NCBI GenBank assembly: GCA_025936825.1
Contig: JAICSO010000004.1
Coordinates: 1-64,000, forward strand
Source of the DNA: Terriglobales bacterium
GTDB taxonomy: Bacteria; Acidobacteriota; Terriglobia; Terriglobales; Acidobacteriaceae
Length of the DNA stretch: 64,000 nt
Reading direction: 5' to 3'
The notes beneath the pieces were generated by a model. That model worked only from the letters and a program-made list of their open reading frames with translations. It was not told where the DNA came from and searched no databases. The stretch's first letter is position 1. Each line of letters begins with the position of its first letter. Made by a program: the position numbers and the translations under genes. Below, piece after piece: positions 37,519-64,000 of the stretch.

Positions 37519-37588
37519 GTTGGTACGTTAGCGCAAATGGTGCCGCTTGTGAAAGCCGCAATTGCGGACGGTGGTCGAGCACATTAAC

Positions 37589-38850: not shown

Positions 38851-40434
38851 ATGAGTACAGCGGCTCCGATTATCGTTGAGAGACCGAACCCGGCAGTGGT
38901 TTCAAACGACACTGCCGAATTCCGGCGGCGAGTCAAATCGATCTCGCGGCACTCCACCGTTTACTTCGCCGGAACACTGTTCACCGCAGTGTCTGGTTAT
39001 TTCTTCAAGATTTATCTCGCGCGGACGCTCGGGGCAGAGGCGTTAGGGATTTACGCGCTGGGGATCAGCATCGTTGGCGTGATCGGCCTGTTTAATGCCG
39101 TTGGCCTGCCAACGGCGGGAGCTAAGTTCGTTTCGGAGTACTCGAGCCGAGGTGACTATGTCCGGCTTGGAGCGTTCCTGCGCGGCGCCTTGAGTCTCTT
39201 GGGATTTGGGAACATTGTCCTGGGAGCCGTGCTGTTGGTGGCAATGCCGTCGATCGCAGTCCGGTTCTATCACACGCCGGCCCTGGCGTCGTATTCCTGG
39301 AGTTTCGCGGCCATCATGTTGCTGGGCGTGCTGAACACCTTTTTGGGGCAGTGCATGGCGGGATTCAGTGCCGTAGCCCAGCGAACGGTGATCACGCATT
39401 TCATGGGGACCAGCGCCACAATTCTGCTCGCGGTCGTGTTGATCAGCCTGCACTTCGGGTTGGGCGGATATTTGGTTGCGCAAGTTGCGAGCGCGACGCT
39501 GATACTGGGATGCCTGGTGTATTCAGTGTGGAAACTTACACCGCCGCGCGCGCGGACCACGGGTGGACTGGGGCATATGGAAAAACGAGTGGTTGCGTTT
39601 TCGGCGACCACGTTCGGAATTGCCATGGTGCACTTCGTGCTGGCCCAGGCAGACAAGATCACGCTGGGGTATTACCTGAATGTTAGGCAGGTCGGAATCT
39701 ATGCGGTTTCGATTGCGGTAGCAGGGTTTGTGCCCATCGCGCTCACGTCGGTCAATCAAATCTTTTCTCCGATGATTGCGGAATTGCATTCCGCAGGAAA
39801 CCACCAAATGCTGCAACTACTCTATGCGTGGCTTACGAAGTGGGTACTTGTGTTCACGATTCCGCTTGCGGCAGCGATCATCATCTTTGCAGGTCCCGTG
39901 ATGACGGCTTTCGGCGGTGACTTCCGGAGCGGAGCTGCGGTACTTGCGGTGTGCGCTATCGCCCAAGTCGTCAATTGCGGGGCGGGATCGGTTGGATTCT
40001 TATTGCTCATGTCGGGAAACCAGCTGTCATTGATGAAGATCCAGGCGGTAAATGCGATATTGATGGTCGCGCTGAATATTCTTCTGGTCCCACGGTTAGG
40101 CATTCTCGGGGCAGCGCTGGGTTTGAGCGCTTCCATCGTAGGGACGAACGTGTGGTGTTTGGCGGAGGTGCGCAAGCGCCTGCATCTCTTTCCCTACAAC
40201 CGTAGTTACGCAAAAGTGGTGCTCTCGGCGATCGTGACGACATTGGCGCTGGTTCTACAACGTAATTTCTTACCCCACGCTACATGGAGAGCGGCCGGAT
40301 TCGCGTTGCCTCTCGCGTACATGGTTTTTCTCGGAGCGATGTTCGTGGTTGGATTTGACGCTGAGGACCGCATGCTTGCCCGGCTGGCGTGGAGCAAAAT
40401 TTGGGGTGCGAACAATGGAGTTTCGAATGAATAA
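38851..40434 (+). CDS. Polysaccharide flippase (Wzx-like, MATE/PST fold)
   Basis: This is a 527-residue membrane protein with about 12-14 hydrophobic helices. It resembles Wzx/RfbX proteins that move lipid-linked repeat units across the inner membrane. Visible cues include the N-terminal YFAGTLFTAVSGYFFKIYLAR with ARTLGAEALGIYAL (conserved in PST transporters), FVLAQADKITLGYYL and the C-terminal LLVPRLGILGAALGLSAS. It lies at the head of the glycosyltransferase run 40.4-49.3 kb and is 155 bp after pseI. The ATG at 38851 is taken. Confidence 0.92.
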   Translation: MSTAAPIIVERPNPAVVSNDTAEFRRRVKSISRHSTVYFAGTLFTAVSGYFFKIYLARTLGAEALGIYALGISIVGVIGLFNAVGLPTAGAKFVSEYSSRGDYVRLGAFLRGALSLLGFGNIVLGAVLLVAMPSIAVRFYHTPALASYSWSFAAIMLLGVLNTFLGQCMAGFSAVAQRTVITHFMGTSATILLAVVLISLHFGLGGYLVAQVASATLILGCLVYSVWKLTPPRARTTGGLGHMEKRVVAFSATTFGIAMVHFVLAQADKITLGYYLNVRQVGIYAVSIAVAGFVPIALTSVNQIFSPMIAELHSAGNHQMLQLLYAWLTKWVLVFTIPLAAAIIIFAGPVMTAFGGDFRSGAAVLAVCAIAQVVNCGAGSVGFLLLMSGNQLSLMKIQAVNAILMVALNILLVPRLGILGAALGLSASIVGTNVWCLAEVRKRLHLFPYNRSYAKVVLSAIVTTLALVLQRNFLPHATWRAAGFALPLAYMVFLGAMFVVGFDAEDRMLARLAWSKIWGANNGVSNE

Positions 40435-45584: not shown

Positions 45585-46726
45585 GCCGGCGAATGGTCCT
45601 GATCACCGAATTGATTGCACCGTACCGCATTCCCGTGTTCAACGCGCTGGCTCGCCGGAAAGAAGTCGAACTTCATGTCATCTTTCTGTCGCGCACCGAT
45701 GCGAGCCAGCGGCAATGGCGGGTGTACGAAGAGGAGATCAAATTTTCGTACGAAGTACTACCGTGTTGGCGAAGGCGTGTGGGGAAGTTCAATGTTCTGC
45801 TGAATCGCGGGATGGCGGAGTCGCTTCGCAAGTTTGCTCCGGACGTGGTCATCTGCGGAGGATATAACTACGTTTCATCGTGGCAGGCGCTCCGCTGGGC
45901 CAAGCGGCATTCCGTCCCCTTTGTCCTGTGGTCGGAAAGCACAGGAAATGACTGCCGCAACAAACATGCGCCAATGGAGTTCCTCAAGTCTAAGTTCGTG
46001 GGGAGTTGCGACGGGTTTGTGGTTCCGGGTCAATCAGCGCGAGATTATCTCCTCAGTTTGGGCGTGAGGTCGGAGGACGTCTCGATCGCGCCAAATGCGG
46101 TGGATACCGCGTTGTTCGCCAGTGCAGGCGCAGTGGTGCGGCAGAACGCAGCGCAGTTACGCGCACAGCTTGCCTTGCCGGAACGATACTTTCTTTTTGT
46201 CGGACGGTTGGTAGCCGAGAAAGGTGTTTTTGACCTTTTGGATGGTTATGAGCGTATGTCGCCAGCGTTGCGGGCGTCAGTCGGACTGGTTTTCGCCGGA
46301 GAAGGATCGATGCGTGCCGAGTTGGAGTCGCGCGCTCGTGACATCCACCCCGGCAGAGTTCATTTCGCAGGATTCGTACATCGCGACGAATTGGCCGCCT
46401 ACTACGCGTTAGCAGAATGCTTCGTGTTTCCCACGCGGACTGATCCGTGGGGCTTGGTCGTGAACGAAGCTATGGCCTGTGGGTTGCCCGTGATTTGCAC
46501 GGGTGTTGCGGGGTGTGCTGCCGACCTCGTGCAGGAGAATGGACGTCTCGTGTCTCCCGCAAACGCCGACGAACTTGCCAGCGCAATGGAAGACATCGCT
46601 ATCAACTCAGACATTCGCGAGCGAATGGCAGGAGAAAGCCGGCAAGCGATACAAGCCCACTCTCCTGAAAGGTGCGCGGCCGGCCTGGCCTTAGCGGCAA
46701 CCGTTTCGGAGGCGCATGTCGGATAA
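45581..46726 (+). CDS. Glycosyltransferase family 4
   Basis: This is a 381-residue GT-B enzyme. Motifs include ITELIAPYRIPVFNALAR, FLFVGRLVAEKGVFDLLDG and DPWGLVVNEAMACGLPVI, in which the first Glu of EX7E is Asp. This start (GTG) overlaps the previous stop. The close, overlapping arrangement with its neighbours suggests coupled translation. Confidence 0.9.
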   Translation: MSRRMVLITELIAPYRIPVFNALARRKEVELHVIFLSRTDASQRQWRVYEEEIKFSYEVLPCWRRRVGKFNVLLNRGMAESLRKFAPDVVICGGYNYVSSWQALRWAKRHSVPFVLWSESTGNDCRNKHAPMEFLKSKFVGSCDGFVVPGQSARDYLLSLGVRSEDVSIAPNAVDTALFASAGAVVRQNAAQLRAQLALPERYFLFVGRLVAEKGVFDLLDGYERMSPALRASVGLVFAGEGSMRAELESRARDIHPGRVHFAGFVHRDELAAYYALAECFVFPTRTDPWGLVVNEAMACGLPVICTGVAGCAADLVQENGRLVSPANADELASAMEDIAINSDIRERMAGESRQAIQAHSPERCAAGLALAATVSEAHVG

Positions 46727-48140
46727 TGCCATCAAGGCTCTCGCGATTTTGCTCGGAGGCGCCCTGGTTGTTGCCGGTCTGCTCCTCTTCCGGCCGGGGT
46801 ACTTTGCGAACACATCGTATCTGGAACTCCTCTTGGGTGCCGAGATCATGCTGATTGCTCTTGCGAATTATCGCAAAGCGTTCTTCCCCATCTTGATTGT
46901 CACGTTCCTATGGGCAGGATCAGCGATGCCTATGAACCAGGGATTCCTACAGGCGCGATGGGCAGTGCTGGGAATTGCCGCAGGTGCAGGTCTGGCGGTG
47001 TACTTGCACGCTCGTGCCCACGCGTTCCGGACAATCCACCTGATCGCGCTGTTTTGTGTCCTCTCAGCTTTTGTCTCGGCTTCGACCTCCGCCTATCCCA
47101 GTGAGGCTCTGCTGAAGGCTCTTAGTTTGCTGATGCTGCTGGTGTACGTGGTAGCGGGAGTGCGCATGGCAGTTCCGGTCCTGTGTCCGGAACGTTTTTT
47201 CCAAAAACTGTTGTTGGCCTGCGAGGTGCTGACATGGGTTACTGCCGTTTGCTACTTTGTGCTCCGGTTTGCGATTTTTGGAAATCCCAACTCTCTTGGC
47301 GCTATCATGGCCGTCGGCGTGACCCCAATGCTCCTGTGGGGGTTTCTCACTGCCGAAACTCCGCAGCGCAAACTGCGTCTGAATATTGAACTGCTTTTGG
47401 CATGGGTGCTGCTTTTGAGCAGCTACTCCAGAGCTTCCATTGGCGGTGCCGCGATTGCCAGTTGCCTTATTTGCGTTTCACTGCGGCAGAACAGGCTGCT
47501 GCTGAAGGGCGTCGCGGCAGGAATTGTGATCGCAATTTGTGTGGCAATTATCCTTCCAGAGGAGTCAGGCGATCCAACCGTAGAATCGGGTTCTTTTGCG
47601 TCGGCATTTCTTTACAAGGGAAAAGAAGACAAAGGATTCCTGGGCTCCCGAATCGGTCCCTGGCGAGAGACATGGAATGTCATTCGCGATAAGCCATGGT
47701 TTGGCAGCGGTTTTGGCACCAGCGCGATAACTGCTGACATGACGAAAATGGATTATGCCGCACATCACATCGATGCCTGGGTGATCCGCGAGCACGGAAA
47801 CAGCTATCTTGCGATCCTCGAGTGGACGGGACTCCTGGGCGTGGTGCCGTTCTATTTCTTGGCGGCCTTGTCGGCGGCCAACGCGGGCCGGGTATTCCTA
47901 TGGGTTCGACGATCTTGCGATGCGTTCTCTCCCGCTTTGCCTGCGGCCGCAATCATCGTGGCTGGCTTGGTCGATGCAATGTTTGAAGACTGGCTTTTCG
48001 CGGTCGGGTACTACGTATGCGTTTTTTTCTGGTCGATCAGCTTTATTCTCGCGGACATTCTTCCAGAGGAGGCGGTAGTGTATGCGCCTCAGTCCCTTGC
48101 CCTTGAAACGTACTATCAGCCCGTACCGCAGGTGCACTGA
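46716..48140 (+). CDS. O-antigen ligase/polymerase-family membrane protein (second copy)
   Basis: This is a 474-residue polytopic protein with about 12 hydrophobic helices and the ligase-family loop: SSYSRASIGGAAIASC, GPWRETWNVIRDKPWFGSGFG and REHGNSYLAILEWTGLLGV. It differs clearly from the minus-strand relative at 23046. It lies among glycosyltransferases, which favours a Wzy polymerase role. GGAGG precedes the ATG, which overlaps the previous stop by 11 bases; the next start (ATG at 48140) overlaps this stop as TGATG. Confidence 0.85.
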   Translation: MSDNAIKALAILLGGALVVAGLLLFRPGYFANTSYLELLLGAEIMLIALANYRKAFFPILIVTFLWAGSAMPMNQGFLQARWAVLGIAAGAGLAVYLHARAHAFRTIHLIALFCVLSAFVSASTSAYPSEALLKALSLLMLLVYVVAGVRMAVPVLCPERFFQKLLLACEVLTWVTAVCYFVLRFAIFGNPNSLGAIMAVGVTPMLLWGFLTAETPQRKLRLNIELLLAWVLLLSSYSRASIGGAAIASCLICVSLRQNRLLLKGVAAGIVIAICVAIILPEESGDPTVESGSFASAFLYKGKEDKGFLGSRIGPWRETWNVIRDKPWFGSGFGTSAITADMTKMDYAAHHIDAWVIREHGNSYLAILEWTGLLGVVPFYFLAALSAANAGRVFLWVRRSCDAFSPALPAAAIIVAGLVDAMFEDWLFAVGYYVCVFFWSISFILADILPEEAVVYAPQSLALETYYQPVPQVH

Positions 48141-50566: not shown

Positions 50567-50574
50567 TGCGAGGA

Positions 50575-51393: not shown

Positions 51394-51509
51394 GCTGGAT
51401 AAGAATAGCGAAGTGACGCGCACTCCTCCGAGTACAAAGTTGTGCACTCCCAAGGAAGTTTTCCGCACGGCAGCGTCAAGTAAGATGGCGGCAGCGTCTG
51501 CCGTTGTTC

Positions 51510-52499
51510 ATGTCACAACTTGCCATGTCGGCTCTGAGCGTTCCAGGCCACGTTGTGCCCTTCACACGCGTGGAAGACGGCGGCACCGCACTGCGCGATG
51601 CCTCGATTCTGCCCATCAGCGTGATCATTGCGGCCAAGAATGAAGCGCGAAATCTCCCCGCGTGCCTGGAATCGGTGCGTAATTTTAGCGAGGTCGTGGT
51701 CGTGGATTCTCAGAGCAGCGATGCGACTGTCGATATCGCGCGCTCGTTCGGCGTGGACGTCGCCCAGTTTTACTATCGTGGCGGCTGGCCGAAGAAGCGG
51801 CAATGGGCGCTCGACAATCTTCCGCTGAGACACGACTGGGTTCTGTTGCTGGATGCAGATGAGGCGGTGACGCCGGAACTTTTGACGGAAATCCGACATG
51901 CGCTCAAGAACCCTGATGTGAATGGCTATTACATCGGCCTTGACATGTTTTTCCTCGGGCGGCAACTGCGGCACTGCGGCGCGACCTTCTACAAGCTGTC
52001 GCTGTTCAGGCGCGATGCGGGACGGTTTGAGTGCCGGACTACCGAGCAGGATTCATCGATGTGCGACATGGAAGTGCACGAGCACATCATCGTTCGCGGA
52101 TCGACTCGCAAATTGGACAGCAAGCTGCTGCACAGAAACGTTGACAGCCTGTCGCGATATATCCAGAAGCACAACGAATATTCAAACTGGGAGGCGCAAG
52201 TCTCGACCGTAGGCGCAGCAGAAGAAGCATTGCATCCCACTCTGTTCGGGACTCAAGCCCAGCGCCGCCGCTGGCTGCGACAGGTATTCTTTCGTTGGCC
52301 TGGGTCGCCTTTTTTGTTCTTCGTCTACAAGTACATCGTGCGTGCGGGATTTCTGGACGGGGTTCCCGGGCTGATCTACTGCGCCTTTCAGGGCATTCAA
52401 TTCTTTCAGATCAAAGCCAAGCTGTACGAGAAGCGGGTCATGGCCGCGGCTGCGCTAAACCAAGCCGAACCGGAGAGTGAGCCGCATGTGCGGAATTAG
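51510..52499 (+). CDS. Glycosyltransferase family 2
   Basis: This is an inverting GT-A enzyme of about 329 residues. It has ISVIIAAKNEARNLPACLES, VVVVDSQSSDAT, the DxD-type motif LLLDADEAVTP and the acceptor-side EVHEHIIVRG, as in the WaaE/KdtX-type group. The C-terminal segment FFRWPGSPFLFFVYKYIVR is membrane-proximal. It starts a plus-strand cassette, and asnB begins within its last 14 bases. Confidence 0.9.
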   Translation: MSQLAMSALSVPGHVVPFTRVEDGGTALRDASILPISVIIAAKNEARNLPACLESVRNFSEVVVVDSQSSDATVDIARSFGVDVAQFYYRGGWPKKRQWALDNLPLRHDWVLLLDADEAVTPELLTEIRHALKNPDVNGYYIGLDMFFLGRQLRHCGATFYKLSLFRRDAGRFECRTTEQDSSMCDMEVHEHIIVRGSTRKLDSKLLHRNVDSLSRYIQKHNEYSNWEAQVSTVGAAEEALHPTLFGTQAQRRRWLRQVFFRWPGSPFLFFVYKYIVRAGFLDGVPGLIYCAFQGIQFFQIKAKLYEKRVMAAAALNQAEPESEPHVRN

Positions 52500-54456
52500 C
52501 GGTCTGGCGAACTGGGGAGACCGCGCGACGCTGGCGCGCATGAACGCGGTGCAGGCGCATCGCGGGCCCAACGACAGTGGCATCTGGGAGCATCGTTCGC
52601 CCGACGGAACATATATCGCACTGGGCAGCAGACGACTTTCGATTCTCGACCTTTCTGCCGATGGGCGTATGCCGATGTCAAACGAGGACGGGACAGTCTG
52701 GATCACCTACAACGGCGAGATCTACAACTTCGCCGACCTGCGGCACGAGCTCGAGTACAAAGGACACCAGTTCGCGTCCAATACTGACACGGAAGTCATT
52801 GTCCATCTCTACGAAGAACTGGGCGACGACTGTGTCACGCGCTTGAACGGAATGTTCGCATTCGCGATCTGCGATCTGCGAGGAAGCGCTCCGCGATTGC
52901 TTTTGGCACGAGATCACTTCGGTGTCAAGCCGCTGTATTACACGCTGGACTCAGGACGGCTGGCATTCGCGTCCGAGGCCAAAGCTCTTCTCGAAGTCGA
53001 CGGCGTCCAGGCGCGAATCGATTTGCAGGCGCTGAATCAGTATTTGAGCTTCCTTTGGGTGCCGGATCCAAAAACCTTGTTCGACGGCATTCTCAAGCTG
53101 CCTGCCGGACATCGCGCTGTGTTTTGCGATGGGCGCCTAGAAATTTCCGAGTACTGGGACCTCAGCTTTCCGCCCGAAGATCACGAGTTCCGATTTTCCG
53201 AAGAGAACCTCGTGCACGAGATCCGCGAGCGGTTTCGGCATTCGGTGGAGCAGCAAATGGTCAGCGATGTTCCACTGGGCGCGTTTTTGAGCGCTGGTTT
53301 GGATTCGTCGAGCATCGTGGCCGCGATGTGCCGAACCGCAAAGAAGCCGCTGCGCACGTACACGATCACGTTTCCGGAAAAGTATCGCAAGGGCGAGAAC
53401 ACGCTGGACGATCCTGCAGTTGCGGCGCGGTTGGCGCGCCAACTCGGGTGCGAGAATCAGCAGATCGTAGTTGAGCCGGACGTAGCCAGCGTGCTGCCGA
53501 AACTGTGCTGGCACATGGACGAGCCCACGGCCGATCCGGCAATTCTCACCGCATACCTTGTCTGCCGCGAGGCGAGCCGCGATGTCACAGTACTTCTCTC
53601 TGGAGTTGGCGGGGACGAGTTGTTTGCCGGATACCGAAAATACGTGGCGCATTATTGGGCGCAACTTGCTCCGAGGTTCGTGAAAAATTCCGCCGCTGGC
53701 CTCGAATCGTCGCTGCCAAACCTGCGTGGATCGAGATTCAAAGGGCAGGTTCGCCTGACAAAGAAGATGTTGCGGAGTGCCGGCGCGAAACCGGAAGAGC
53801 GGTTTATCCGAAACTGCACTTATTTGGATTCGGCGCAAACGGGAAGCTTGCTGTCGCGAGATGTTAGAGGGGAGCTGCACGACGTTCATGCTGACGCCGA
53901 GCACCTTGCTCGCTTCGAGAGAGTTCAGCATGCAGACTTCCTGAACCAGATGCTCTATCTCGATACGAAGATCTTCATGCCCAGCCTGAACCTTACGTAC
54001 AACGACAAGATGAGCATGGCATCGTCGGTTGAGGTTCGGGTTCCATTTTTAAATCGCGAACTGGCGGAATTTGTCGCATGGAATGTTCCTCCACGGCTGA
54101 AATTGAAGGGCAGGTTGTTCCCAACCACGAAGCACGTCTTCCGCAAGGCCATGAGCGGAATTCTTCCGGAAGAAGTGCTGAAGCAGCCAAAGGCTGGCTT
54201 TGCCGCGCCCACCGATTACTGGCTTGCCCATGACTTGCACGAAATGACGGGCGATCTTCTATCGGAATCGCGGGTGCGCGCGCGCGGACTGTTCCGGCCG
54301 GAAGCTGTCAACAAGTTTGTGGACGAACATCGCAGCGGGAAGCAGGATTGGTCGATGCAGATTTGGCAATTCCTCACTCTGGAATTGTGGATGCAGAACT
54401 TCCTGGACGGCTCGCGGTTTTCGCAGGTTGAGGCGGTGCAGGCGGCTATCGCATGA
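52486..54456 (+). CDS. asnB: Glutamine-dependent amidotransferase (AsnB family)
   Basis: This is a 656-residue two-domain enzyme. The class II glutaminase domain starts at Cys2 (MCGISGLANW) and includes HRGPNDSGIW and EIYNFADLRHELE. The synthetase domain has the ATP-binding PP-loop LSAGLDSSSIVA, then LSGVGGDELFAGYRKY and YNDKMSMASSVEVRVPFLNR. Besides asparagine, AsnB relatives in glycan loci amidate sugar carboxylates. Its position next to an oxidoreductase, a carbamoyltransferase and a C5-epimerase suggests uronic-acid amidation, which is inference. GGAG precedes the ATG. Confidence 0.93.
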   Translation: MCGISGLANWGDRATLARMNAVQAHRGPNDSGIWEHRSPDGTYIALGSRRLSILDLSADGRMPMSNEDGTVWITYNGEIYNFADLRHELEYKGHQFASNTDTEVIVHLYEELGDDCVTRLNGMFAFAICDLRGSAPRLLLARDHFGVKPLYYTLDSGRLAFASEAKALLEVDGVQARIDLQALNQYLSFLWVPDPKTLFDGILKLPAGHRAVFCDGRLEISEYWDLSFPPEDHEFRFSEENLVHEIRERFRHSVEQQMVSDVPLGAFLSAGLDSSSIVAAMCRTAKKPLRTYTITFPEKYRKGENTLDDPAVAARLARQLGCENQQIVVEPDVASVLPKLCWHMDEPTADPAILTAYLVCREASRDVTVLLSGVGGDELFAGYRKYVAHYWAQLAPRFVKNSAAGLESSLPNLRGSRFKGQVRLTKKMLRSAGAKPEERFIRNCTYLDSAQTGSLLSRDVRGELHDVHADAEHLARFERVQHADFLNQMLYLDTKIFMPSLNLTYNDKMSMASSVEVRVPFLNRELAEFVAWNVPPRLKLKGRLFPTTKHVFRKAMSGILPEEVLKQPKAGFAAPTDYWLAHDLHEMTGDLLSESRVRARGLFRPEAVNKFVDEHRSGKQDWSMQIWQFLTLELWMQNFLDGSRFSQVEAVQAAIA

Positions 54457-56645
54457 AGCAAGTTTTGCAGAGCGCTCGGACTGGCAGGATCGAGGTGGCG
54501 GAGGTGCCCGCGCCACGTGTGCTGCCGGGGTGCGTGCTGGTAAGAATTGGCGCGTCGTTGGTTTCTGCGGGAACCGAACGGGCGTCGAGCGAGTTTGCGT
54601 CGAAGAGTTTGCTGCAAAAGGCGAAAACGCGGCCCGACCTCGTGCGCGACGTGATCAGCAAGATTCAGCGTGACGGCATCTTGTCCGCTGTTTCTGCGGT
54701 GCGCAGCCGCTTGGATCAGCCTCTGGCGCTCGGGTACAGCAGCGCGGGCACAGTGATTGCCGTTGGTGAAGGGGTGGCCGACATCGTGCCCGGGGATCGC
54801 GTGGCATGCGCGGGCGCGAACTATGCGGTCCATGCGGAGTTCGCATGCGTTCCGAGGATGTTGGTGGCGCGGATTCCATCTGCCGCTATCGATTTCCAGA
54901 GCGCTGCGTTCACAACGCTGGGCGTAGTGGCGATTCATGGTGTACGGACGGCTGAAGCGAAACTCGGAGACACGGTTGCCGTGATTGGGTTAGGTTTGCT
55001 CGGTCAACTTACCATACAGGTGTTGCTGGCGGCCGGCGGCAGAGTGATTGGATTCGACCTGCTGCAGGAGCGAGCAGAACTCGCGCGCAATTCGGGTACG
55101 ATGGCGGTCAGCGCGTCGGAAGCCGAATTTCGAGATTTGTGCACGCAGCACACCTCAGGGAATGGCGTGGATTGCGTGCTGATCACCGCGGAAACGTCCA
55201 GCAGTGGACCCGTGAATCTCGCGTCGCAGATCGCTCGCGACAGAGCAGTGGTCTGCGCGGTCGGCACCGTTGGTCTGGAATTGCAGCGCAAGTTGTACTA
55301 CGAGAAAGAACTCGATTTTCGGATCTCGCGGTCGTATGGACCCGGACGCTACGATGCCGCGTTCGAGCAAAAGGGGCGCGATTATCCGATCGGCTACGTG
55401 CGCTGGAGCGAAACCCGCAACATGGAAGCGTTTCTGCAGTTGCTCGCCGACGGGAAAGCCGATGTCCGCCCGCTGATTACTCACACGTTTGATGTTGAGC
55501 ACGCCGAGGCCGCATACGAGTTGATCACCGGAAAAAAACGGGAGCGATATCTCGGAGTCGTGATTCGTTACACACGCGACGAACTGGAGCCCACAACACG
55601 GTTGGAACTGGTATCGAGAAAGACCCAGACCGAGGCGCAGGTGAAAATCGGGGTGCTGGGCGCGGGCAACTTCGCCCTAGGCACGCTGATCCCGGCGATT
55701 CAAGCATGCGACGGCATCCAACTCGAAGGCATTTGCGCGTCGAACGGCGCGCGCGCGAAATCCGCGGCCGAGAAGTTTGGCTTTGGGTTTTGCACGAGTC
55801 ACGAAGAAGAAATCCTCTCGAATCCAAAGATCAACACGGTTATCGTCGCGACACGTCATCATTTGCATGCGCAACAGGTGATTCGCGCGTTGGAATCAGG
55901 AAAGCATGTTTTCTGCGAGAAGCCGCTCTGCTTGAACGAAGCTGAACTCTCTGAGATCGAGGCGGCATACAATCGCGCGGGCGGCAGGGTTCAACTGATG
56001 GTTGGCTTCAATCGCCGGTTCGCGCCGATGGGGAAACAGATGAAGTCTTTCCTGGAGAATGCGAGCGGGCCGATGGTGATGCACTATCGCGTGAACGCTG
56101 GCATGCTGCCGAGAGATCACTGGATCAACGATCCCGAGCAGGGTGGCGGACGCATTCTCGGCGAGGTCTGCCACTTCGTGGATTTTCTATCATTCCTTTG
56201 CGGCGCCACGCCGCTGAGCGTAGAGGCCACGGCGATTCCGCGTGGAGCAGAAGATCAGGACGCGATCATTCAGCTTGCATTCAGCGATGGCTCGACTGGA
56301 ACCATTCACTACGTCTGCAGCGGTGATCGCGTGTTTGGGAAGGAACGCGTCGAAGTGTTCGGCGGCGGCGCTGTTGCGGTGCTCGACGATTTCCGGCGTC
56401 TCGAACTCGTCCGCCAGGGCCGCAAGCAGGTGTACCGGTCGCGGTTGCGGCAGGACAAAGGACATCGCGCCGAATGGCAGGAGTTCGCCAATTCTCTCCG
56501 CAATGGCAGCCCATCTCCGATGAGTTTCGAGGAGATTTGCGCGACCACGCTGGCGACAATTCGGATCGCAGACTCGCTTCGATCTGGCCAAGAACGCGTT
56601 ATCGCAAACGAACTAGAGATTGCCGCTGCACCACTCGTCTCATGA
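54453..56645 (+). CDS. Bi-domain oxidoreductase (MDR alcohol dehydrogenase-like plus Gfo/Idh/MocA)
   Basis: This is a 730-residue fusion. The N-terminal part (about 1-375) is an MDR alcohol-dehydrogenase-like domain with TVAVIGLGLLGQLTIQVLLA; the usual catalytic zinc cysteine is not obvious (GASLVSAGTERAS). The C-terminal part (about 390-730) is a Gfo/Idh/MocA oxidoreductase with KIGVLGAGNFALGTLIPA, HVFCEKPLCLNEAEL and EVCHFVDFLSFL. Such fusions typically sit with AsnB and glycosyltransferases in surface-glycan loci and probably oxidise or reduce a nucleotide sugar. The start overlaps the asnB stop by four bases. Confidence 0.9.
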   Translation: MKQVLQSARTGRIEVAEVPAPRVLPGCVLVRIGASLVSAGTERASSEFASKSLLQKAKTRPDLVRDVISKIQRDGILSAVSAVRSRLDQPLALGYSSAGTVIAVGEGVADIVPGDRVACAGANYAVHAEFACVPRMLVARIPSAAIDFQSAAFTTLGVVAIHGVRTAEAKLGDTVAVIGLGLLGQLTIQVLLAAGGRVIGFDLLQERAELARNSGTMAVSASEAEFRDLCTQHTSGNGVDCVLITAETSSSGPVNLASQIARDRAVVCAVGTVGLELQRKLYYEKELDFRISRSYGPGRYDAAFEQKGRDYPIGYVRWSETRNMEAFLQLLADGKADVRPLITHTFDVEHAEAAYELITGKKRERYLGVVIRYTRDELEPTTRLELVSRKTQTEAQVKIGVLGAGNFALGTLIPAIQACDGIQLEGICASNGARAKSAAEKFGFGFCTSHEEEILSNPKINTVIVATRHHLHAQQVIRALESGKHVFCEKPLCLNEAELSEIEAAYNRAGGRVQLMVGFNRRFAPMGKQMKSFLENASGPMVMHYRVNAGMLPRDHWINDPEQGGGRILGEVCHFVDFLSFLCGATPLSVEATAIPRGAEDQDAIIQLAFSDGSTGTIHYVCSGDRVFGKERVEVFGGGAVAVLDDFRRLELVRQGRKQVYRSRLRQDKGHRAEWQEFANSLRNGSPSPMSFEEICATTLATIRIADSLRSGQERVIANELEIAAAPLVS

Positions 56646-56667
56646 CAGAACGACGAAGGGAATTTGC

Positions 56668-58401
56668 ATGCTGATTTTGGGATTGAACATGTTTCATGCC
56701 GACGCGTCGGCGGCCATCGTGCAAGACGGCAAGGTTGTGTTCGGAATCGCCGAGGAGCGCCTGAACCGCGTGAAACACTACGCTGGGTTTCCCACCATGG
56801 CGATTCAAGCCTGTCTGGACGCGGTTGGCGCAAAGATCGGCGACATCGATCACATTGCAGTTGGCCAGGATACCGACGCCAATCTCGCTGAAAAAGTACG
56901 GTATGCAATTTCCAATCCCGCGAAGCTGCTGAATTTCATTCGCCTGCGCAAGCGGAAGCAGGACATCCGCGATGTGCGGGAACTGATCGCCAGAAACCTT
57001 GAGTGCGATGCGCAAGCCGTGCCCTTTAAGGTGCACCACCTCGAACACCATATCGCGCACATTGCGAGCGCGTATTACTGCTCGCCGTGGGAGAAGGCCG
57101 CCGGCTTCAGTTATGACGGGTCCGGCGACTTCGTTTCCACGATGATGGCGCGTTGCGAGGGGAACAAGGTTGATGTGCTGGACCGCGTGTTCCTGCCTCA
57201 TTCGCTCGGCAGCTTCTACACGATGATTTGCGAGTTCATCGGCTACAACAAATATGGCGATGAAGGCAAAGTGATGGGCCTGGCGCCGTATGGGCGCGAC
57301 ACGTACTGCGATCAAGTCCGCGAACTACTGATGACCAGTTCTTCCGGTTTTGAATTGGATCTCGAGTACTTCAAGCCGCTGGGCAGCAACGAAGGCATGC
57401 AGATCAAGCAGGACGGAACCGTGGCATTGGCGCGCCACTTCTCCGGACGCATGGAGGAGTTGTTTGGCCCGCCGCGCGCGCCGGATTCGGAAATCACGCA
57501 GCGCGACATGGACCTCGCCTACGCCATGCAGCACTGTTTCGAGGAAGTTTTCTTTCATCTCTTGAACGAGCTGCATAAGCGAGTGCCGCTGGAAAATATT
57601 GCGATGGCCGGCGGTTGCGCTCTCAATAGCGTGGCCAATGGAAAATTGTTTGCGCGCACTCCGTTCCGGCATACGTGGATTCAGCCTGCTGCCGGCGACG
57701 AAGGACTGGCGGTTGGGGCGGCGCTGCACACGTATCACTCAGTCCTGGGTCACAAACGCGACTTCGTGATGCAGAACTCATACCTGGGGCCGGAATTTTC
57801 AGATTCACGCATTGAGTCCTCACTGAACGCTGCGGGGGTGAAATTCCGGAAACTTGAGCGTGGCCCCATGCTCGACACGGTTTCCGATCGGATCGCCAAA
57901 GGCGACGTGGTGGGATGGTTCCAGGGCAGGATGGAGTGGGGGCCGCGGGCGCTGGGCAATCGGTCAATCCTGGCGCATCCAGGGTCGCCCAATATGAAGG
58001 ACGTGCTGAATGCGCGCATCAAGCGGCGCGAGTGGTTCCGTCCGTTTGCGCCGTCAATTTTGCAGGAACGACAGGCGGAGTTCTTCGAACACGATCACCC
58101 CTCGCCGTTCATGCTGCATGTGTACAAGATCAAACCTGAGAAGCGCGAGCAGTTGTGCGCGGTGAATCACGTGGACGACACGGGCCGGCTGCAGAGCGTG
58201 AGCCGCGAAGAAAATCCGCTCTATTACGAGTTGATTCAGAGCTTCGAGCGCAAGAGCGGGATCCCGGTTGTGTTGAACACGAGTTTCAATGAAAACGAGC
58301 CCATTGTGTGCGCACCTGAGGAGGCGATCAGTTGCTTCCAGCGTACCCGTATGGACGCGCTCGCGATTGGCCCATACGTCGCGCTGAAGAGCGAAAACTA
58401 G
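56668..58401 (+). CDS. NodU/TobZ-type carbamoyltransferase
   Basis: This is a 577-residue O-carbamoyltransferase. The N-terminal Kae1-like domain holds GLNMFHADASAAIVQDG, FGIAEERLNRVKHYAGFP and the metal site HHLEHHIAHIASAYY (His127/His131), then FSYDGSGDF. The C-terminal domain has GRMEWGPRALGNRSILAHP, the binding motif of the family, and VVLNTSFNENEPIVC. These enzymes move a carbamoyl group from carbamoyl phosphate through carbamoyl-AMP onto a hydroxyl. Here the acceptor is likely a sugar. AAGGGA precedes the ATG at 56668. Confidence 0.93.
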   Translation: MLILGLNMFHADASAAIVQDGKVVFGIAEERLNRVKHYAGFPTMAIQACLDAVGAKIGDIDHIAVGQDTDANLAEKVRYAISNPAKLLNFIRLRKRKQDIRDVRELIARNLECDAQAVPFKVHHLEHHIAHIASAYYCSPWEKAAGFSYDGSGDFVSTMMARCEGNKVDVLDRVFLPHSLGSFYTMICEFIGYNKYGDEGKVMGLAPYGRDTYCDQVRELLMTSSSGFELDLEYFKPLGSNEGMQIKQDGTVALARHFSGRMEELFGPPRAPDSEITQRDMDLAYAMQHCFEEVFFHLLNELHKRVPLENIAMAGGCALNSVANGKLFARTPFRHTWIQPAAGDEGLAVGAALHTYHSVLGHKRDFVMQNSYLGPEFSDSRIESSLNAAGVKFRKLERGPMLDTVSDRIAKGDVVGWFQGRMEWGPRALGNRSILAHPGSPNMKDVLNARIKRREWFRPFAPSILQERQAEFFEHDHPSPFMLHVYKIKPEKREQLCAVNHVDDTGRLQSVSREENPLYYELIQSFERKSGIPVVLNTSFNENEPIVCAPEEAISCFQRTRMDALAIGPYVALKSEN

Positions 58402-58402
58402 C

Positions 58403-59476
58403 ATGGCCACCCAGGCGGTTGCGTCGCGTCCACTCGCATCTGCACTTCAGGTCAAAAAAATTGCCGTGTTCCCGGGGATGCGGGTGCTCGCTTGGGAAAA
58501 AGATGTTCTCTATGTGTCTCGCGGATACACGCTGCTGAAGGCGCATTGTGTCGGTGAACGGTTTGATTGGGAGATTGTCGCAAGGTGCAAGCCGGAGTGG
58601 TGGCGAAGTATGACCTGCCGATCGCGGTTGAGTGCGCGCTTGGTGCGGGACGGATTTCATGCGCTCACGGGGTGCCCAAACGGGAACCTTATTGCGGCGA
58701 TGCCGGGGGCAATTGCGACACTTCGAAAGGGCGATTCCGAATTCCGTGTCACGCACCGTCTACTGCGTGGCACGCGGCCGCTGCATATCTGCATGACTCC
58801 GGACGGGCGTGCGTATTGGGGCGAGTACTTCGACAATGCGCAGCGTGACGAAGTCGACATTTACGCATCGGGTGACGGCGGGTTGCGTTGGGACGTGGCT
58901 TACACATTTCCAAAATATGCAATCCGGCACGTGCACAACATCGTCTACGACCGCGGGGAGAAATGCCTCTGGATATTTACTGGCGATTACGGGCGCGAGT
59001 GCAAGATTCTGAGGGCCTCGCTTGATCTTTCAACCGTGGACGAAATTGTTGCGGGAAACCAGCATGCACGAGCGGTCGCAGTGATTGTTGATGAATCCGG
59101 GCTGTTTTTTGCGTCCGATACACCGCTGGAAAAAAACTACATCTTTCACCTGGATCGGAGAGGACGTCTGCAGCAATGCGCTGAAATTTCCAGTTCTTCG
59201 ATTTATGGATGCCGCACCCGTTCCGGAATGTTTTTCTCCACTATGATCGAACCCAGCGTGGCAAATCCGAGCCGCAATGTCTCTCTATACGGCAGTGCGG
59301 ACGCAGCGCGATGGGATGCGCTGGCTCAGTGGCGCAAAGATCACTGGCCAATGAAGTATTTTCAGTACGGAAACGCCTTCCTTCCCGATGGCGAGAATGC
59401 AACGGACCTCCTTGCGGTCACCACCATCGCCGTCGAAAACGCCGATCTTGAAACGTCCATCTGGAAAGTCTGCTAG
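58403..59476 (+). CDS. Propeller-like hypothetical protein
   Basis: This is a 357-residue protein with no named family that I recognise. Repeated strand-turn patterns, such as YASGDGGLRWDVAYTFP and LYGSADAARWDALAQW, recall Asp-box/BNR repeats of sialidase-like beta-propellers. The ATG at 58403 follows the carbamoyltransferase stop by one base. Its TAG stop (59474-59476) is in the same frame as the following epimerase gene, with no other stop between. Function might be glycan binding or lyase-like, but this cannot be shown. Confidence 0.6.
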   Translation: MATQAVASRPLASALQVKKIAVFPGMRVLAWEKDVLYVSRGYTLLKAHCVGERFDWEIVARCKPEWWRSMTCRSRLSARLVRDGFHALTGCPNGNLIAAMPGAIATLRKGDSEFRVTHRLLRGTRPLHICMTPDGRAYWGEYFDNAQRDEVDIYASGDGGLRWDVAYTFPKYAIRHVHNIVYDRGEKCLWIFTGDYGRECKILRASLDLSTVDEIVAGNQHARAVAVIVDESGLFFASDTPLEKNYIFHLDRRGRLQQCAEISSSSIYGCRTRSGMFFSTMIEPSVANPSRNVSLYGSADAARWDALAQWRKDHWPMKYFQYGNAFLPDGENATDLLAVTTIAVENADLETSIWKVC

Positions 59477-59521
59477 GCGCACAAAAGCAGGGAACCAGTT
59501 GCGCTAACCGAACACAGCTAC

Positions 59522-60532
59522 TTGGAATGCTATAGTCGGGCCAGCCTGTCGATCCCATTGCTGCAACGAATCAATTATTACCGCCGGGTCTTTCGCGCCT
59601 ATCTTCTGCCCGGCGAAAGCCAGTTGAGTTTCTGGCACGATCGCGCGGAATTGAATCCGCGAGCGACGATCGGCAGACTTGGCGAGTACTACATGAATTT
59701 CTCGCACAAGGCACGCTACACCGGGCCTTCCGACAGCGACGGCATTCCAAAGCTTAACTATCACGGCAGCATCGGGCTGCAATATAACCCGATCGCCATC
59801 GCGCAATGGGGACTGGGAAACTTTAACCTCTACAAGCAAGGCACTCGCGAGCATTCGTATCGCAAGTTTCTTCTGGCAAGCGATTGGCTTTGCGCTCATC
59901 TGGAAACGAATGCTCACGGCGTAAGCGTTTGGCAACACCACTTCGATTGGGAATATCGAAGCCGGTTGCGTTCTCCCTGGCATTCAGGCTTGGCGCAGGG
60001 ACAAGGCATCTCGCTGCTCGTACGAGCACACGCAGAAACTGGCGATCAGAAGTACATGGATTCGGCCGCCGCAGCGTTTCACAGCTTCACGGTGAGCACG
60101 GAGCGAGGCGGTGTCATGTTCGCCGACGCCAACGGCGATCTCTGGATTGAGGAGTACATTGTTTCGCCGCCCACCCATATTCTGAATGGATTTATGTGGG
60201 CGTTGTGGGGAGTCTATGACTTTTACGTCGCGACAGGTTCGTCCGACGCGTGCGAACTGTTCGCAGTGGGGATCAAGACGTTGCGAACAAACCTGCACTG
60301 TTACGATCTCGGTTTCTGGTCGTTGTACGAGCAATCAGGAACGCGTCTTCCGATGATTGCAAGCCCGTTTTATCACCGGCTGCATATCACTCAACTGCAG
60401 GTGATGCATAGGCTCACGGGCGATGCCATCTTTGCCCAGTTCGCCGACCGTTGGCAGCGGTATGCGCACAGCCGGTCCAAACGCACGCGCGCCTTGTGCT
60501 ACAAGGGCGCGTTCAAACTCTGTCACTACTGA
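59522..60532 (+). CDS. D-glucuronyl C5-epimerase-like protein
   Basis: This is a protein of about 336 residues with the alpha/alpha-barrel C-terminal signature of D-glucuronyl C5-epimerases: YNPIAIAQWGLGNFNLY, SGLAQGQGISLLVRAHAETG, THILNGFMWALWGVYDF, GFWSLYEQSG and ASPFYHRLHITQLQVMHRLTG. Family members flip glucuronic acid to iduronic acid in heparin-like or alginate-like polymers. The start is unclear: TTG at 59522 has no ribosome-binding site, and the same frame is open all the way from the TAG ending the propeller-like gene. The next GT4 frame overlaps its end. Confidence 0.82.
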   Translation: MECYSRASLSIPLLQRINYYRRVFRAYLLPGESQLSFWHDRAELNPRATIGRLGEYYMNFSHKARYTGPSDSDGIPKLNYHGSIGLQYNPIAIAQWGLGNFNLYKQGTREHSYRKFLLASDWLCAHLETNAHGVSVWQHHFDWEYRSRLRSPWHSGLAQGQGISLLVRAHAETGDQKYMDSAAAAFHSFTVSTERGGVMFADANGDLWIEEYIVSPPTHILNGFMWALWGVYDFYVATGSSDACELFAVGIKTLRTNLHCYDLGFWSLYEQSGTRLPMIASPFYHRLHITQLQVMHRLTGDAIFAQFADRWQRYAHSRSKRTRALCYKGAFKLCHY

Positions 60533-61809
60533 GGCCGACCCTGAGGATTCTGTACATCTCGCAGTACTTTCCGCCCGAGATGGGCGCGCCGTCAGCGCGT
60601 GTATCGGAATTGGCGCGGCACTGGGTTGTGGCGGGTCACGACGTCACGGTGCTTACTGGCTTCCCAAATCATCCCGATGGTGTCCTGCGGCCGGAATACC
60701 GCGAGCGCTTTTTGCGTGGGTTCTGCCGCGAGGATTTCTACGGAGTAAGGGTTGTCCGCACATTTCTGCTACCTTTCCCCAATCGTAAGGCGCATGAGCG
60801 CATTTTGAATTACACATCGTTCTGCATGTCGGCCGCGATCGCTGGGTCATTTGTAGAACGTCCGGACGTTGTAATCGCCACTTCTCCTCAACTGCTGGTG
60901 GGGCTTTCTGGCTGGTGGGCGTCTCGGATAAAGAGAGTGCCATTCGTCTTGGAAGTGCGTGATTTGTGGCCGGAGTCGCTTGTAGGAACCGGTGTTGGGA
61001 ATGAAACGTCGCTGATGTACCGAACTATCGGCAAGATCGCTTCGTTTCTATATCGGCGAGCTGACTCGATCGTGGTAGTTACACCTTCGTTCCGCGACCA
61101 TCTCGTTCGGGAGTGGGACGTACGAACGGAGAAGATTACGGTCGTTCAGAATGGCGTGGAGACCGCGCTTTTCAGGCCGCAAGAGAGTGCTTGCGATATT
61201 CGGAATGAGTTGCGAGCAGAAGGTAAGTTCGTAGTCTCCTACATCGGAACGTTAGGGATGGCGCACGGGCTCGACACTCTGATCGCTACCGCCGAGCGTC
61301 TTCAGAAAGTCGCACCGCAGGTGTTGTTCATGCTGGTCGGAGAAGGCGCCGACCGCGAACGCATTCTGTCGCTGGCGGTGTCGAAAAACCTCAGGAACCT
61401 GGTATTTGTTCCACAACAGCCGCGTGAAAAAATTCCCGCTTACATCTCTGCGTCAGACGCATGCGTGGTGATGTTGAAAGACAAGGAAGTTTTCGAGACG
61501 GTGATTCCCACGAAGATGCTGGAGTTCATGTCGTGCGCGCGGCCGGTGATCCTGGCAGTGCGAGGTCAGGCGAAGCGCGTCCTGGAGGCAGCAGCCGGCG
61601 GGATCTGCATCGAACCGGATAGTCCAGATGCCTTGTGCTCGGCCATTCTGCAGCTGCGGGATCAGCCTGCGCTCTGTGAAGAGATGGGGCGTCGAGGCCG
61701 GAACTACATCGTTCGGGAGCTTTCGCGCGAGCGAATTGCTCAGGAATATCTCACAGTTTTGCAACGGGTCCTGGGTGAAGTACCTGCACATCGTACGGCA
61801 GCCGCTTAA
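60496..61809 (+). CDS. Glycosyltransferase family 4 (WbuB-like)
   Basis: This is a GT-B enzyme of about 437 residues. Conserved parts start at LRILYISQYFPPEMGAPSAR, followed by VTVLTGFPNHPDG, EVRDLWPESLVGTG, VVQNGVETALFRP, VSYIGTLGMAHGLDTLI and VIPTKMLEFMSCARPVI. This is the WbuB/WcaI-like subgroup. The start is uncertain: GTG at 60496 lies within the epimerase gene; a start nearer to 60541 would match the conserved N-terminus better. It ends the third glycan cassette and converges with the SLBB gene 14 bp away. Confidence 0.88.
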   Translation: MLQGRVQTLSLLRPTLRILYISQYFPPEMGAPSARVSELARHWVVAGHDVTVLTGFPNHPDGVLRPEYRERFLRGFCREDFYGVRVVRTFLLPFPNRKAHERILNYTSFCMSAAIAGSFVERPDVVIATSPQLLVGLSGWWASRIKRVPFVLEVRDLWPESLVGTGVGNETSLMYRTIGKIASFLYRRADSIVVVTPSFRDHLVREWDVRTEKITVVQNGVETALFRPQESACDIRNELRAEGKFVVSYIGTLGMAHGLDTLIATAERLQKVAPQVLFMLVGEGADRERILSLAVSKNLRNLVFVPQQPREKIPAYISASDACVVMLKDKEVFETVIPTKMLEFMSCARPVILAVRGQAKRVLEAAAGGICIEPDSPDALCSAILQLRDQPALCEEMGRRGRNYIVRELSRERIAQEYLTVLQRVLGEVPAHRTAAA

Positions 61810-61823: not shown

Positions 61824-62804
61824 CTAAGGATGCAGCGTAACGATGCTTACCGCAGTTGCCATCTGCAGTGCGGCCTCAGCGGTGCGGCCGCCAATGATCT
61901 TGCGGGCGCTGGCAGGGACGAAGAGGATGTCGTTCGCCTGCAGAGGCACGTCGCCGGTTTTCGCCTGCAGCATCTTTTTGAGCGAGACGGGAATCTCGCT
62001 TACGCCTTGGGGGCTCTTGCGAATAATTCGCGCGCCGCCAAGCTTCGCGGTACTTGTGGTTCCACCCGCCAGGGCGATGGCCTGTAGGACGCTCAGTTTG
62101 CCGCCGTTGTCCATGAGAAAGCCACTGGGGCGGTTTACGTCGCCAACCACGTAGATCACGTCGGCCCGGCGCACCATGACCGTGTCGCCGGGATAAACCG
62201 GAACATTGCTGTCTGGATGGTCCTCGAGATTCCGCGAGATGGGCACAACAATCGGTTTATCAGGTGCGGCTTTGTGAGTAACGGTGATGCTGGTTCCGGC
62301 CGCGGGGCTCAAGCCGCCCGCAGCCGACAACAGATTGAAAAGACGTTGCTCACCGAGCACCGGATAGACACCAGGTCTTGAGACTTCACCGAGAATACTC
62401 GTGCCATCCGAACTGTATTCGGAGACGAACACTTGCACATGAGGATTTCGGACGAACCCTCCGTGCTCGAGCCGCTGCTCGATGGCTTTTTCCGCCTCAT
62501 CAACTGTAAGCCCTTCCACATGGACCTGATTCACGAGAGGCATGTCGATGTCGCCGCTGTCGCCGACGCGCGTGCGCGTGTTCAGTTCAGGCACATCGTA
62601 AACGTTCACTTCTACCAGGTCGCCTTGTCCGAGGCGAATGCTGGCATCCAGATTGCGAGCTTGAGGAGAACTACTTTTGGCGGCAGTTGACGCCGGAATT
62701 GCGGCGTTACTTGCAGGCGTGCTCGTGTTCGTGACCTGGGCTGCGCACAATACAGCCGAAGCTGTGAACAGAACCCATCTTACCGACAGCACTCCGAATC
62801 GCAT
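61824..62804 (-). CDS. SLBB-domain polysaccharide export protein (Wza-like)
   Basis: This is a 326-residue periplasmic or outer-membrane protein. A signal peptide covers about residues 1-22 (RWVLFTASAVLCAAQ), without a clear lipobox at this site. The Poly_export domain starts near residue 55 (RLGQGDLVEVNVYDVPEL), and two SLBB domains follow (GEVSRPGVYPVLGEQRLFNL, then GDVNRPSGFLMDNGGKLSVL). Wza-like proteins form the channel for polymer export. It is the export partner of the Wzz/BY-kinase at 25978. It is divergent from the initiating transferase gene with about 198 bp between, a space holding both promoters. Confidence 0.92.
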   Translation of the reverse strand: MRFGVLSVRWVLFTASAVLCAAQVTNTSTPASNAAIPASTAAKSSSPQARNLDASIRLGQGDLVEVNVYDVPELNTRTRVGDSGDIDMPLVNQVHVEGLTVDEAEKAIEQRLEHGGFVRNPHVQVFVSEYSSDGTSILGEVSRPGVYPVLGEQRLFNLLSAAGGLSPAAGTSITVTHKAAPDKPIVVPISRNLEDHPDSNVPVYPGDTVMVRRADVIYVVGDVNRPSGFLMDNGGKLSVLQAIALAGGTTSTAKLGGARIIRKSPQGVSEIPVSLKKMLQAKTGDVPLQANDILFVPASARKIIGGRTAEAALQMATAVSIVTLHP

Positions 62805-63002: not shown

Positions 63003-64000
63003 TTGACTCTGGTCTATCTCGGAACGTTTGTTGGGGCCCTGCTGCTTGCGTTCGTTTCCACCAAAGTAGTCCGGGACCTCGCCAACCGGCACAACTGGGT
63101 GTCGGCGCCGCACAACTCTCGACATCTTCATACTCAAGCATTGCCGCGGCTGGGCGGCGTCGCCATTGTGTTCTCGTTCCTTTGCGCGACCGGCATCGGG
63201 GTGGCATTGCAGCGGATCTTTCATCCGGAAGCGGGTCTCCACCTCAGCTCGCTGCTTACAATTTTGCCCCCAGCGCTGCTGATCTTTCTGCTCGGCGTGT
63301 ACGACGACCTGAGGACCGCGGGTCCATATCTTAAGTTCGGAGTGCAGGCTATTGCGGCCGCCATCCTGTTTGCCGGAGGGTTGCGGATCTCCGATATCCC
63401 GCTTCTGTTTGGCTCACACCAGTTCTCCTGGTTTGTGGGGCTGCCGCTCACCATTTTTTGGGTGATGGCAATTACAAACGCTTTCAACCTGATCGACGGA
63501 TTGGACGGACTCGCGGCAGGTTCGGCGCTTTTCTCGACGTTGGTGATGTTCGTGGTGGCGACACTCGGAAATATGTCGTTGGTGTCGCTGGTGACGCTGG
63601 CCCTGGCAGGTGCGGTGCTCGGGTTTCTGCGCTACAACTTCAATCCGGCAACGATTTTCCTGGGCGATTGCGGTAGCCTATTTGTAGGTTTCCTGCTGAG
63701 TGCGTTGTCGTTAAAAGGCGCGCAGAAGGCGCCAACGTTGATCGCGGTCGCGATTCCGCTGGTGTCGTTTGGGCTGCCGATTCTCGAAACTACGCTCTCC
63801 ATTGCGCGGCGATTCATCAGCGGACGACCAGTGTTCACCGCGGACCGCGAACACATCCATCACAAACTGCTGGAGCACGGCTGGTCACATCGGCAAGTGG
63901 TGATCATCCTTTACGGTGTGTCAGCGGTATTCGCTTTACTCAGTCTCTTTCTGTTATGGCCTACGGGCAGCACGCTCGGGCTTGTGCTGGCGGTGCTGGG
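63003..64000 (+). CDS. WecA/TagO-type polyprenyl-phosphate sugar-1-phosphate transferase (partial)
   Basis: This gene runs past the window end; about 332 residues are visible. It is a polytopic member of the MraY/WecA family and starts the lipid-linked repeat unit by moving a sugar-1-phosphate onto undecaprenyl phosphate. Motifs are RHLHTQALPRLGGVAIV, LLGVYDDLRTAGPYLKF with the catalytic Asp pair, ITNAFNLIDGLDGLAAG, IFLGDCGSLFVGFLL and ADREHIHHKLLEHG. The TTG at 63003 has GGAGG about nine bases upstream and continues in frame to the end of the window. Confidence 0.9.
   Translation, partial: MTLVYLGTFVGALLLAFVSTKVVRDLANRHNWVSAPHNSRHLHTQALPRLGGVAIVFSFLCATGIGVALQRIFHPEAGLHLSSLLTILPPALLIFLLGVYDDLRTAGPYLKFGVQAIAAAILFAGGLRISDIPLLFGSHQFSWFVGLPLTIFWVMAITNAFNLIDGLDGLAAGSALFSTLVMFVVATLGNMSLVSLVTLALAGAVLGFLRYNFNPATIFLGDCGSLFVGFLLSALSLKGAQKAPTLIAVAIPLVSFGLPILETTLSIARRFISGRPVFTADREHIHHKLLEHGWSHRQVVIILYGVSAVFALLSLFLLWPTGSTLGLVLAVL

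Follow-up and report, generated by a model that had tools for sequence, protein, structure and literature searches.

Why should the exopolysaccharide (EPS) locus of an acidobacterium encode a homolog of GLCE, the animal D-glucuronyl C5-epimerase, and what would such a protein do there? The locus lies in the window, by which we mean the whole stretch of DNA analyzed, the first 64,000 bases of contig JAICSO010000004.1 of Terriglobales bacterium assembly GCA_025936825.1 (a genome of 6.54 Mb in 141 contigs). From about 23 kb to the window end it is a single large EPS region, with Wzc, two Wzy-type proteins, Wzx, several glycosyltransferases, EpsE/Wza and a WecA-type protein. A sequence-only reading had picked out a co-directional set here, consisting of an amidotransferase, a bi-domain dehydrogenase, a carbamoyltransferase and a C5-epimerase-like protein between two glycosyltransferases, and all six genes do lie on one strand and score above their Pfam cut-offs. 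It overlooked a seventh co-directional gene, between the carbamoyltransferase and the epimerase homolog. This missed gene and the exchange described below are what is new here: four of the genes behave as an exchangeable block between a constant amidotransferase and a constant glycosyltransferase. The genes, with the names used throughout, are the following.

51504..52499, + strand: family 2 glycosyltransferase (GT2; PF00535, 62 bits), which opens the conserved order; likely start ATG 51510
52486..54456, + strand: AsnB-type glutamine-dependent amidotransferase (AsnB; PF00733, 328 bits; PF13537, 151 bits)
54453..56645, + strand: bi-domain oxidoreductase (BiDom), a fusion of medium-chain dehydrogenase/reductase (MDR) and Gfo/Idh/MocA parts (PF01408, PF00107, PF08240, PF22725)
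56668..58401, + strand: O-carbamoyltransferase of NodU/TobZ type (CarbT; PF02543, 188 bits; PF16861, 237 bits; scanned from 56620)
58403..59476, + strand: beta-propeller protein of 357 aa without known family (the propeller; AlphaFold2 pLDDT 90.3; co-occurs with CarbT)
59522..60532, + strand: GLCE-type D-glucuronyl C5-epimerase homolog (C5epi; Pfam C5-epim_C, PF06662, 176 bits against a cut-off of 23.3; start codon uncertain)
60451..61809, + strand: family 4 glycosyltransferase (GT4), WcaI-like (PF13579, PF00534), a constant flank of both cassette types; its TTG start overlaps C5epi, and the true start is probably near 60540

Our preferred reading, to which we give a probability of roughly 0.55, is that these genes form a cytoplasmic tailoring cassette of a Wzx/Wzy-type EPS locus that would yield an epimerized, amidated and carbamoylated uronate, with the block BiDom-CarbT-propeller-C5epi as one swappable allele.

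The evidence for exchange comes from an ortholog survey of 300 genomes of the family. At ten loci lacking C5epi, the order is AsnB, a GH127-like gene (~425 aa), a formyltransferase (~272 aa), a heparinase-like gene (~726 aa), BiDom and GT4; the Pfam families of this alternative block were read in one locus (L195), and its three genes were matched across loci by tblastn. All three are present in 10/10 heparinase-type family loci and none was matched in 45 C5epi loci. Of 52 close BiDom loci, 7 lie at contig ends and were excluded from the count (two of these, in G370 and G498, were not fetched). The 45 readable loci comprise 30 with C5epi, 10 with the heparinase-like gene, 5 with neither and 0 with both, one BiDom gene broken over two contigs (G559) entering twice, as a cut locus and as a C5epi locus. 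No locus holding both C5epi and the heparinase-like gene was found among 69 loci checked. In two loci of the same genus, L247 and L087, the flanks are 89-95% identical overall at the protein level (GT2 93%, AsnB 94.5%, GT4 92%, WecA 94.6%), and BiDom is 64% identical.

Gene trees give the same picture. The cassette type switches 5 times each on the trees of WecA, AsnB and GT4 and once on that of BiDom, in which the heparinase-type proteins form one group (support 98). These were quick trees without bootstrap, keeping 39 WecA, 37 BiDom, 30 AsnB and 51 GT4 rows after those too short or under the identity limit had been dropped; L197 and L201, which belong to a different family of the phylum, and L085, on a very long branch, were kept in the WecA tree; all three, and L196, were left out of the others. 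Since each flank tree needs five switches and the BiDom tree only one, BiDom travels with its partner enzymes and is likely matched to them, with AsnB and GT4 as the constant frame.

The strongest rival to a shared uronate chemistry is plain serotype-like exchange, in which each block makes a side group unrelated to that of the other and their members are no functional counterparts: The heparinase-type protein would be a genuine lyase, serving quality control or chain release, and the epimerase block an unrelated decoration. We rate this a little below an even chance. The blocks differ in all genes except BiDom, and an Asn, a Tyr and a His (N277, Y331, H514) that align with heparinase III, at positions which we take to be its catalytic residues, are kept in 10/10 of the heparinase-type proteins of the alternative cassette. 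Against this stand the sharing of BiDom, AsnB and GT4 by both types and the order GT2-AsnB-BiDom-heparinase-GT4 at L196, L197 and L201, where the heparinase-type gene occupies the epimerase position of the window.

To judge by its sequence and predicted structure, the protein of 59522-60532 is clearly a GLCE relative. A PDB sequence search matches it to human GLCE (6hzz) at E 2e-29, and its AlphaFold2 model (pLDDT 85.2) aligns with the same structure at Z 33.2 and 2.5 Å over 274 residues, with the next family at Z 17.1. The catalytic residues of GLCE, listed in the available portion of PMC13308652 as E499, Y500, N510, Y560 and Y578, are all present in C5epi as E211, Y212, N222, Y269 and Y284. 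Of 45 close C5epi sequences, the window included, 42 retain the whole set; the remaining 3 are truncated or disrupted. Like animal GLCE (PDB 6hzz, 4pw2), C5epi has the PF06662 domain, the catalytic residues and the helical (alpha/alpha) domain; unlike it, C5epi is 336 aa long against 511 residues in the human chain, corresponds only to the part around the helical domain, and sits in a Wzx/Wzy locus. Modification of alginate type was rejected, as no cassette protein matches an AlgG/AlgE-type family in the Pfam scan.

A bacterial GLCE-type enzyme has been described from Bermanella marisrubri RED65 (Raedts 2013, via PMC4432689 and PMC13308652). As far as the excerpts of these sources extend, it was the only bacterial D-glucuronyl C5-epimerase identified until then (PMC13308652), and its EPS and target were unknown (PMC4432689); it resembles C5epi in being bacterial and of GLCE type, a likeness drawn from description. 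Agl32 of Halobacterium, on the partial text of PMC13308652, is a C5-epimerase that acts on a short oligosaccharide and requires flanking sugars; it differs from C5epi in lacking the GLCE catalytic residues and in serving N-glycosylation.

A second rival is that the substrate of the PF06662 protein is not GlcA but another sugar (for example of ManNAcA or GalA type), or that the protein is another kind of isomerase; we consider this possible but rather unlikely. Near plasmid-borne BiDom genes of Sphingobium and Parabacteroides there are wecB/wecC genes, which point to ManNAcA in those systems, and among ten more distant family relatives of C5epi (27-34% identical) the Tyr of Y212 is missing in 7 and N222 in 5. 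The five GLCE residues kept in the window and in nearly all close sequences argue the other way. C5epi relatives also occur in 7 plasmid records, at 26-30% identity; two were opened, and both lie in other contexts.

CarbT belongs with the NodU/TobZ/GdmN carbamoyltransferases, as it has both the N- and C-terminal carbamoyltransferase domains over cut-off and a near full-length match: It aligns with TobZ (3ven, E 2e-84) across residues 2-574 of 577 and with PDB 7xb6 at E 4e-85. It differs from them in being paired with the propeller, which is its near-obligate partner: The two are adjacent in 28/28 close loci holding both (of 44 loci). The propeller has no Pfam match even at E 10, and a PDB sequence search gave none at E 1 from the single sequence and two weak matches, the best at E 0.037, from a profile. 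Many propellers match its model at Z about 24-25, and because they match about equally well the fold yields no function. A PL42-type rhamnose-glucuronate lyase (7esl) ranked first in Foldseek (E 6e-9, TM 0.55) but was rejected as a candidate, since the scores of WD40 and other propellers are much the same. Many charged residues are retained among its relatives.

Propellers of this kind are found mainly in Acidobacteriota. A scan with two peptide patterns, which distant relatives can escape, covered 84,980 species at one genome per species and returned 56 loci. At 40-46% identity there are propellers in Bacillota metagenome-assembled genomes (MAGs; L147, L152), Rokubacteriota (L150) and Omnitrophota (L151), and in the Bacillota and Rokubacteriota loci the gene lies directly 3' of a carbamoyltransferase. 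More distant relatives (26-32%) occur in Butyricimonas, Prevotella, Slackia, Sphingopyxis, a Gemmatimonadetes MAG and a Lachnospiraceae MAG. In Sulfotelmatobacter-type loci, a pentein/DDAH-like gene (PF19420) directly precedes the propeller (L134:9112-9936; also L125, L138 and L148). L125 and L134 had suggested that the pentein takes the place of CarbT, an idea weakened because four such genomes keep CarbT beside BiDom at another locus.

The most likely start of AsnB is ATG 52486, giving MCGIS with the N-terminal Cys (Cys2) intact. It combines an N-terminal Cys glutaminase domain with a synthase domain (PF13537, PF00733), contains the motifs MCGISGLANWGD and SAGLDSS, and scores above the TIGR01536 cut-off. 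It is like the XrtA/PEP-CTERM EPS amidotransferase in being an AsnB-type gene in an EPS locus, and falls under the cut-off of that family (TIGR03108, 523.9 against 816.9 bits). WbpS and WbtH, which make uronamides and are encoded by AsnB-type genes in O-antigen loci, are comparable. In BiDom, the Gfo/Idh/MocA half carries an EKP motif. Zinc-dependent MDR alcohol dehydrogenases usually have GHE as their zinc-site motif, and a motif scan for GH[ED] found none anywhere in the protein.

BiDom also occurs beside heparinase-type genes elsewhere. We read 40 further Acidobacteriota BiDom loci, from 39 of 53 other matching genomes and mostly better matches; one of them, L195, belongs to the ten heparinase-type loci as well. 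A heparinase-type gene is present in 17 of the 40, an AsnB relative in 16, a WecB-like gene in 13 and C5epi in 0. BiDom is found in 7 plasmid records, 4 of which were opened; on three of these, from Sphingobium, Streptomyces and Parabacteroides, a heparinase or alginate lyase gene comes after BiDom, and in Streptomyces a nucleotide sugar dehydrogenase and AsnB are nearby. With the wecB/wecC genes of the other two, this places BiDom among genes of uronate type, in favor of the preferred reading. The order in Slackia is propeller-BiDom-AsnB-heparinase-GT4. From sequence it cannot be told whether the heparinase-type protein of the alternative cassette is a lyase or an epimerase. Within the sections available of PMC8006597, DS-epi1, a C5-epimerase, has its fold and active site in common with heparinase II. 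The likeness of human DS-epimerase 1 and the bacterial heparinases to the alternative cassette lies in its heparinase II/III-type protein; the window cassette, unlike those systems, carries none, and the protein of the alternative cassette aligns with heparinase III, whereas DS-epi1 is likened to heparinase II in that portion of PMC8006597.

A bolder proposal, which we think unlikely, is that the GLCE-type epimerase and the heparinase/DS-epimerase-type protein are interchangeable alleles, two unrelated uronate C5 enzymes. The "heparinase" and "alginate lyase" genes adjoining BiDom in biosynthetic operons would then encode C5-epimerases, either the counterpart of animal DS-epimerase in bacteria or its source. 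The propeller, for its part, would represent a new family on which carbamoylation of the epimerized sugar depends.

The association of these genes, on which the sequence-only reading depended, holds in homologous clusters. Within the family the epimerase is matched in 50 genomes (44 close), the oxidoreductase in 69 at E 1e-60 (50 close), the carbamoyltransferase in 86 at E 1e-60 (35 close) and the propeller in 38. C5epi is found in 35/35 genomes with a close CarbT, and the propeller in 34/35; 37 of the 50 genomes with a BiDom ortholog also have C5epi. C5epi occurs without CarbT in 9 genomes (one with a remnant) and without the propeller in 8. Since CarbT is always accompanied by C5epi and C5epi is found in these 9 genomes without CarbT, carbamoylation looks layered on epimerization, and it is this nesting of gene presence that suggests an order of steps. 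In a sample of 297 genomes across the phylum, the epimerase is found in only 4 and the oxidoreductase in 55.

Among the 44 close C5epi loci that were fetched, 16 show the order GT2-AsnB-BiDom-CarbT-propeller-C5epi-GT4-EpsE-WecA, a recurrence beyond chance; in one of the 16 (L012 of G023) CarbT and the propeller are remnants only. In that locus (12046-12883), CarbT residues 8-87 are fused directly to propeller residues 165-355 and the epimerase is kept, as by internal deletion or, alternatively, through an assembly error. Four genomes (G367, G421, G464 and G545) have the set split, with CarbT and BiDom at L244, L253, L249 and L246, respectively, and the propeller and C5epi at L067, L075, L079 and L081, respectively; all four genes are retained in each, so the pairing holds. 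AsnB is replaced by a DUF362 gene and an AMP-binding gene in L110 (3069-5998, at the AsnB position), L116 and L074, and also in L244, L246 and L253, and by a methyltransferase in L143. In the Rokubacteriota locus, DUF362, fused to GT2, and an AMP-binding gene lie near CarbT-propeller-BiDom. CarbT and the propeller are both absent in L061, L072 and L073, for example. The association is thus modular and not fixed, in that AsnB, CarbT with the propeller, or BiDom can be missing. That the genes are mere neighbors, with several independent glycan functions in a large EPS locus and no common substrate, would agree with most cassette genes being missing at some locus, and is very improbable against the genome-level pairing (kept in the four split genomes) and a BiDom tree that tracks the block.

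Under the preferred reading of a uronate-tailoring cassette, the WecA-type transferase and the glycosyltransferases would build a lipid-linked repeat unit holding a hexuronic acid. Within this oligosaccharide, presumably in the cytoplasm, C5epi would flip C5 of the uronate (GlcA to IdoA type), the reaction of GLCE on heparan sulfate. AsnB would convert a carboxylate to an amide, BiDom would perform a redox step matched to the C5 enzyme, and CarbT would carbamoylate a hydroxyl. The propeller may be needed for carbamoylation, probably by recognizing or presenting the epimerized glycan, and the repeat unit would then be flipped, polymerized and exported. The block of which C5epi is part would swap with GH127-like-formyltransferase-heparinase-like-BiDom between AsnB and GT4. 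The epimerized, amidated and carbamoylated uronic acid that the sequence-only reading had proposed therefore fits but is unproven: The enzyme families are capable of it, the epimerase residues are kept and five nucleotide-sugar dehydrogenases are encoded elsewhere, with the modular association on the other side. Because these five pass TIGR03026, the host can probably make uronates.

Several observations weigh against the preferred reading. A uronate-forming dehydrogenase was not found on the contig of the window, the five being on other contigs, and to our knowledge no glycan structure of any carrier has been reported. Amidation is not obligatory, because AsnB is replaced in some loci and absent in others, and the chemistry of BiDom is left open because its MDR half lacks the usual zinc motif. 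Neither C5 enzyme is in the stretch read at 23 of the 40 further Acidobacteriota BiDom loci, and neither adjoins BiDom on the Thalassospira plasmid. In G347 and G393 there is a propeller but no C5epi. In the Bacillota MAG locus L147 (6537-11017), GHMP kinase and SIS-domain genes precede CarbT and the propeller, and because they adjoin this pair they suggest that a heptose rather than a uronate is carbamoylated there. Well-supported branches alone force fewer switches of cassette type (4 for WecA and 3 each for AsnB and GT4, of 5). Finally, the hypergeometric and Fisher values for co-occurrence treat related genomes as independent, which makes the p-values too small, and the trees are the better guide.

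Here a GLCE-type enzyme lies among its likely partners in an EPS locus that is complete and conserved, and carbamoyltransferase research gains the propeller as a new partner candidate. Through the block exchange, nature has set up a genetic comparison with a heparinase-type protein. It is relevant to lyase/epimerase interconversion and to the origin of DS-epimerase, matters that the DS-epi1 authors discuss as open in the portion available of PMC8006597. We recognized no paper on this gene set in the open-licence literature, which does not in itself show that none is in print.

The wider locus is of the Wzx/Wzy-dependent type, with genes for Wzx, Wzy, Wzc, Wza and an initiating transferase, the last assigned to the WecA type through a 62% relative in L012 that matches PF00953.

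25978..28320, - strand: Wzc-type chain-length/tyrosine kinase protein (PF02706, PF13614, PF13807)
38851..40434, + strand: Wzx-type flippase (PF13440, PF01943), collinear in G023
46716..48140, + strand: Wzy/O-antigen-ligase family polymerase (PF04932, 57 bits)
61824..62804, - strand: polysaccharide export protein of Wza/EpsE type (PF02563, PF10531), a constant flank
63003..63998, + strand: WecA-type polyprenyl-phosphate sugar-1-phosphate transferase, an open reading frame that continues past the window end

The sequence-only reading had also placed a NodB-like deacetylase and a phosphatase-superfamily protein in an adjacent operon. For the former (40652-41818) no Pfam family exceeds its cut-off, the best being DUF2334 at E 0.071, and the deacetylase assignment is not supported. 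The latter (41782-43293) is a sulfatase-family relative within the alkaline-phosphatase superfamily (PF00884, 154 bits); it lacks CxPxR, the motif of formylglycine sulfatases, and is possibly a phosphotransferase. "Adjacent" was loose: The pair lies ~8 kb upstream of the cassette, with four glycosyltransferases, a Wzy and two opposite-strand genes in between. It is, though, collinear in the related locus of G023.

A nonulosonic-acid gene set of pseudaminic/legionaminic type occupies 28468-38695 (PF02719, DegT, methyltransferase, cytidylyltransferase, GT28-like, WbqC and NeuB). It looks like an insertion or loss relative to G023, because none of its genes was matched between Wzc-Wzy and Wzx in the collinear EPS locus of that genome (L013). 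Directly before the cassette, at 49367-51468, a membrane protein and a methyltransferase are encoded on the opposite strand, and in many relatives a second, more distant AsnB (about 25-36%) stands at this position, replacing them or in addition.

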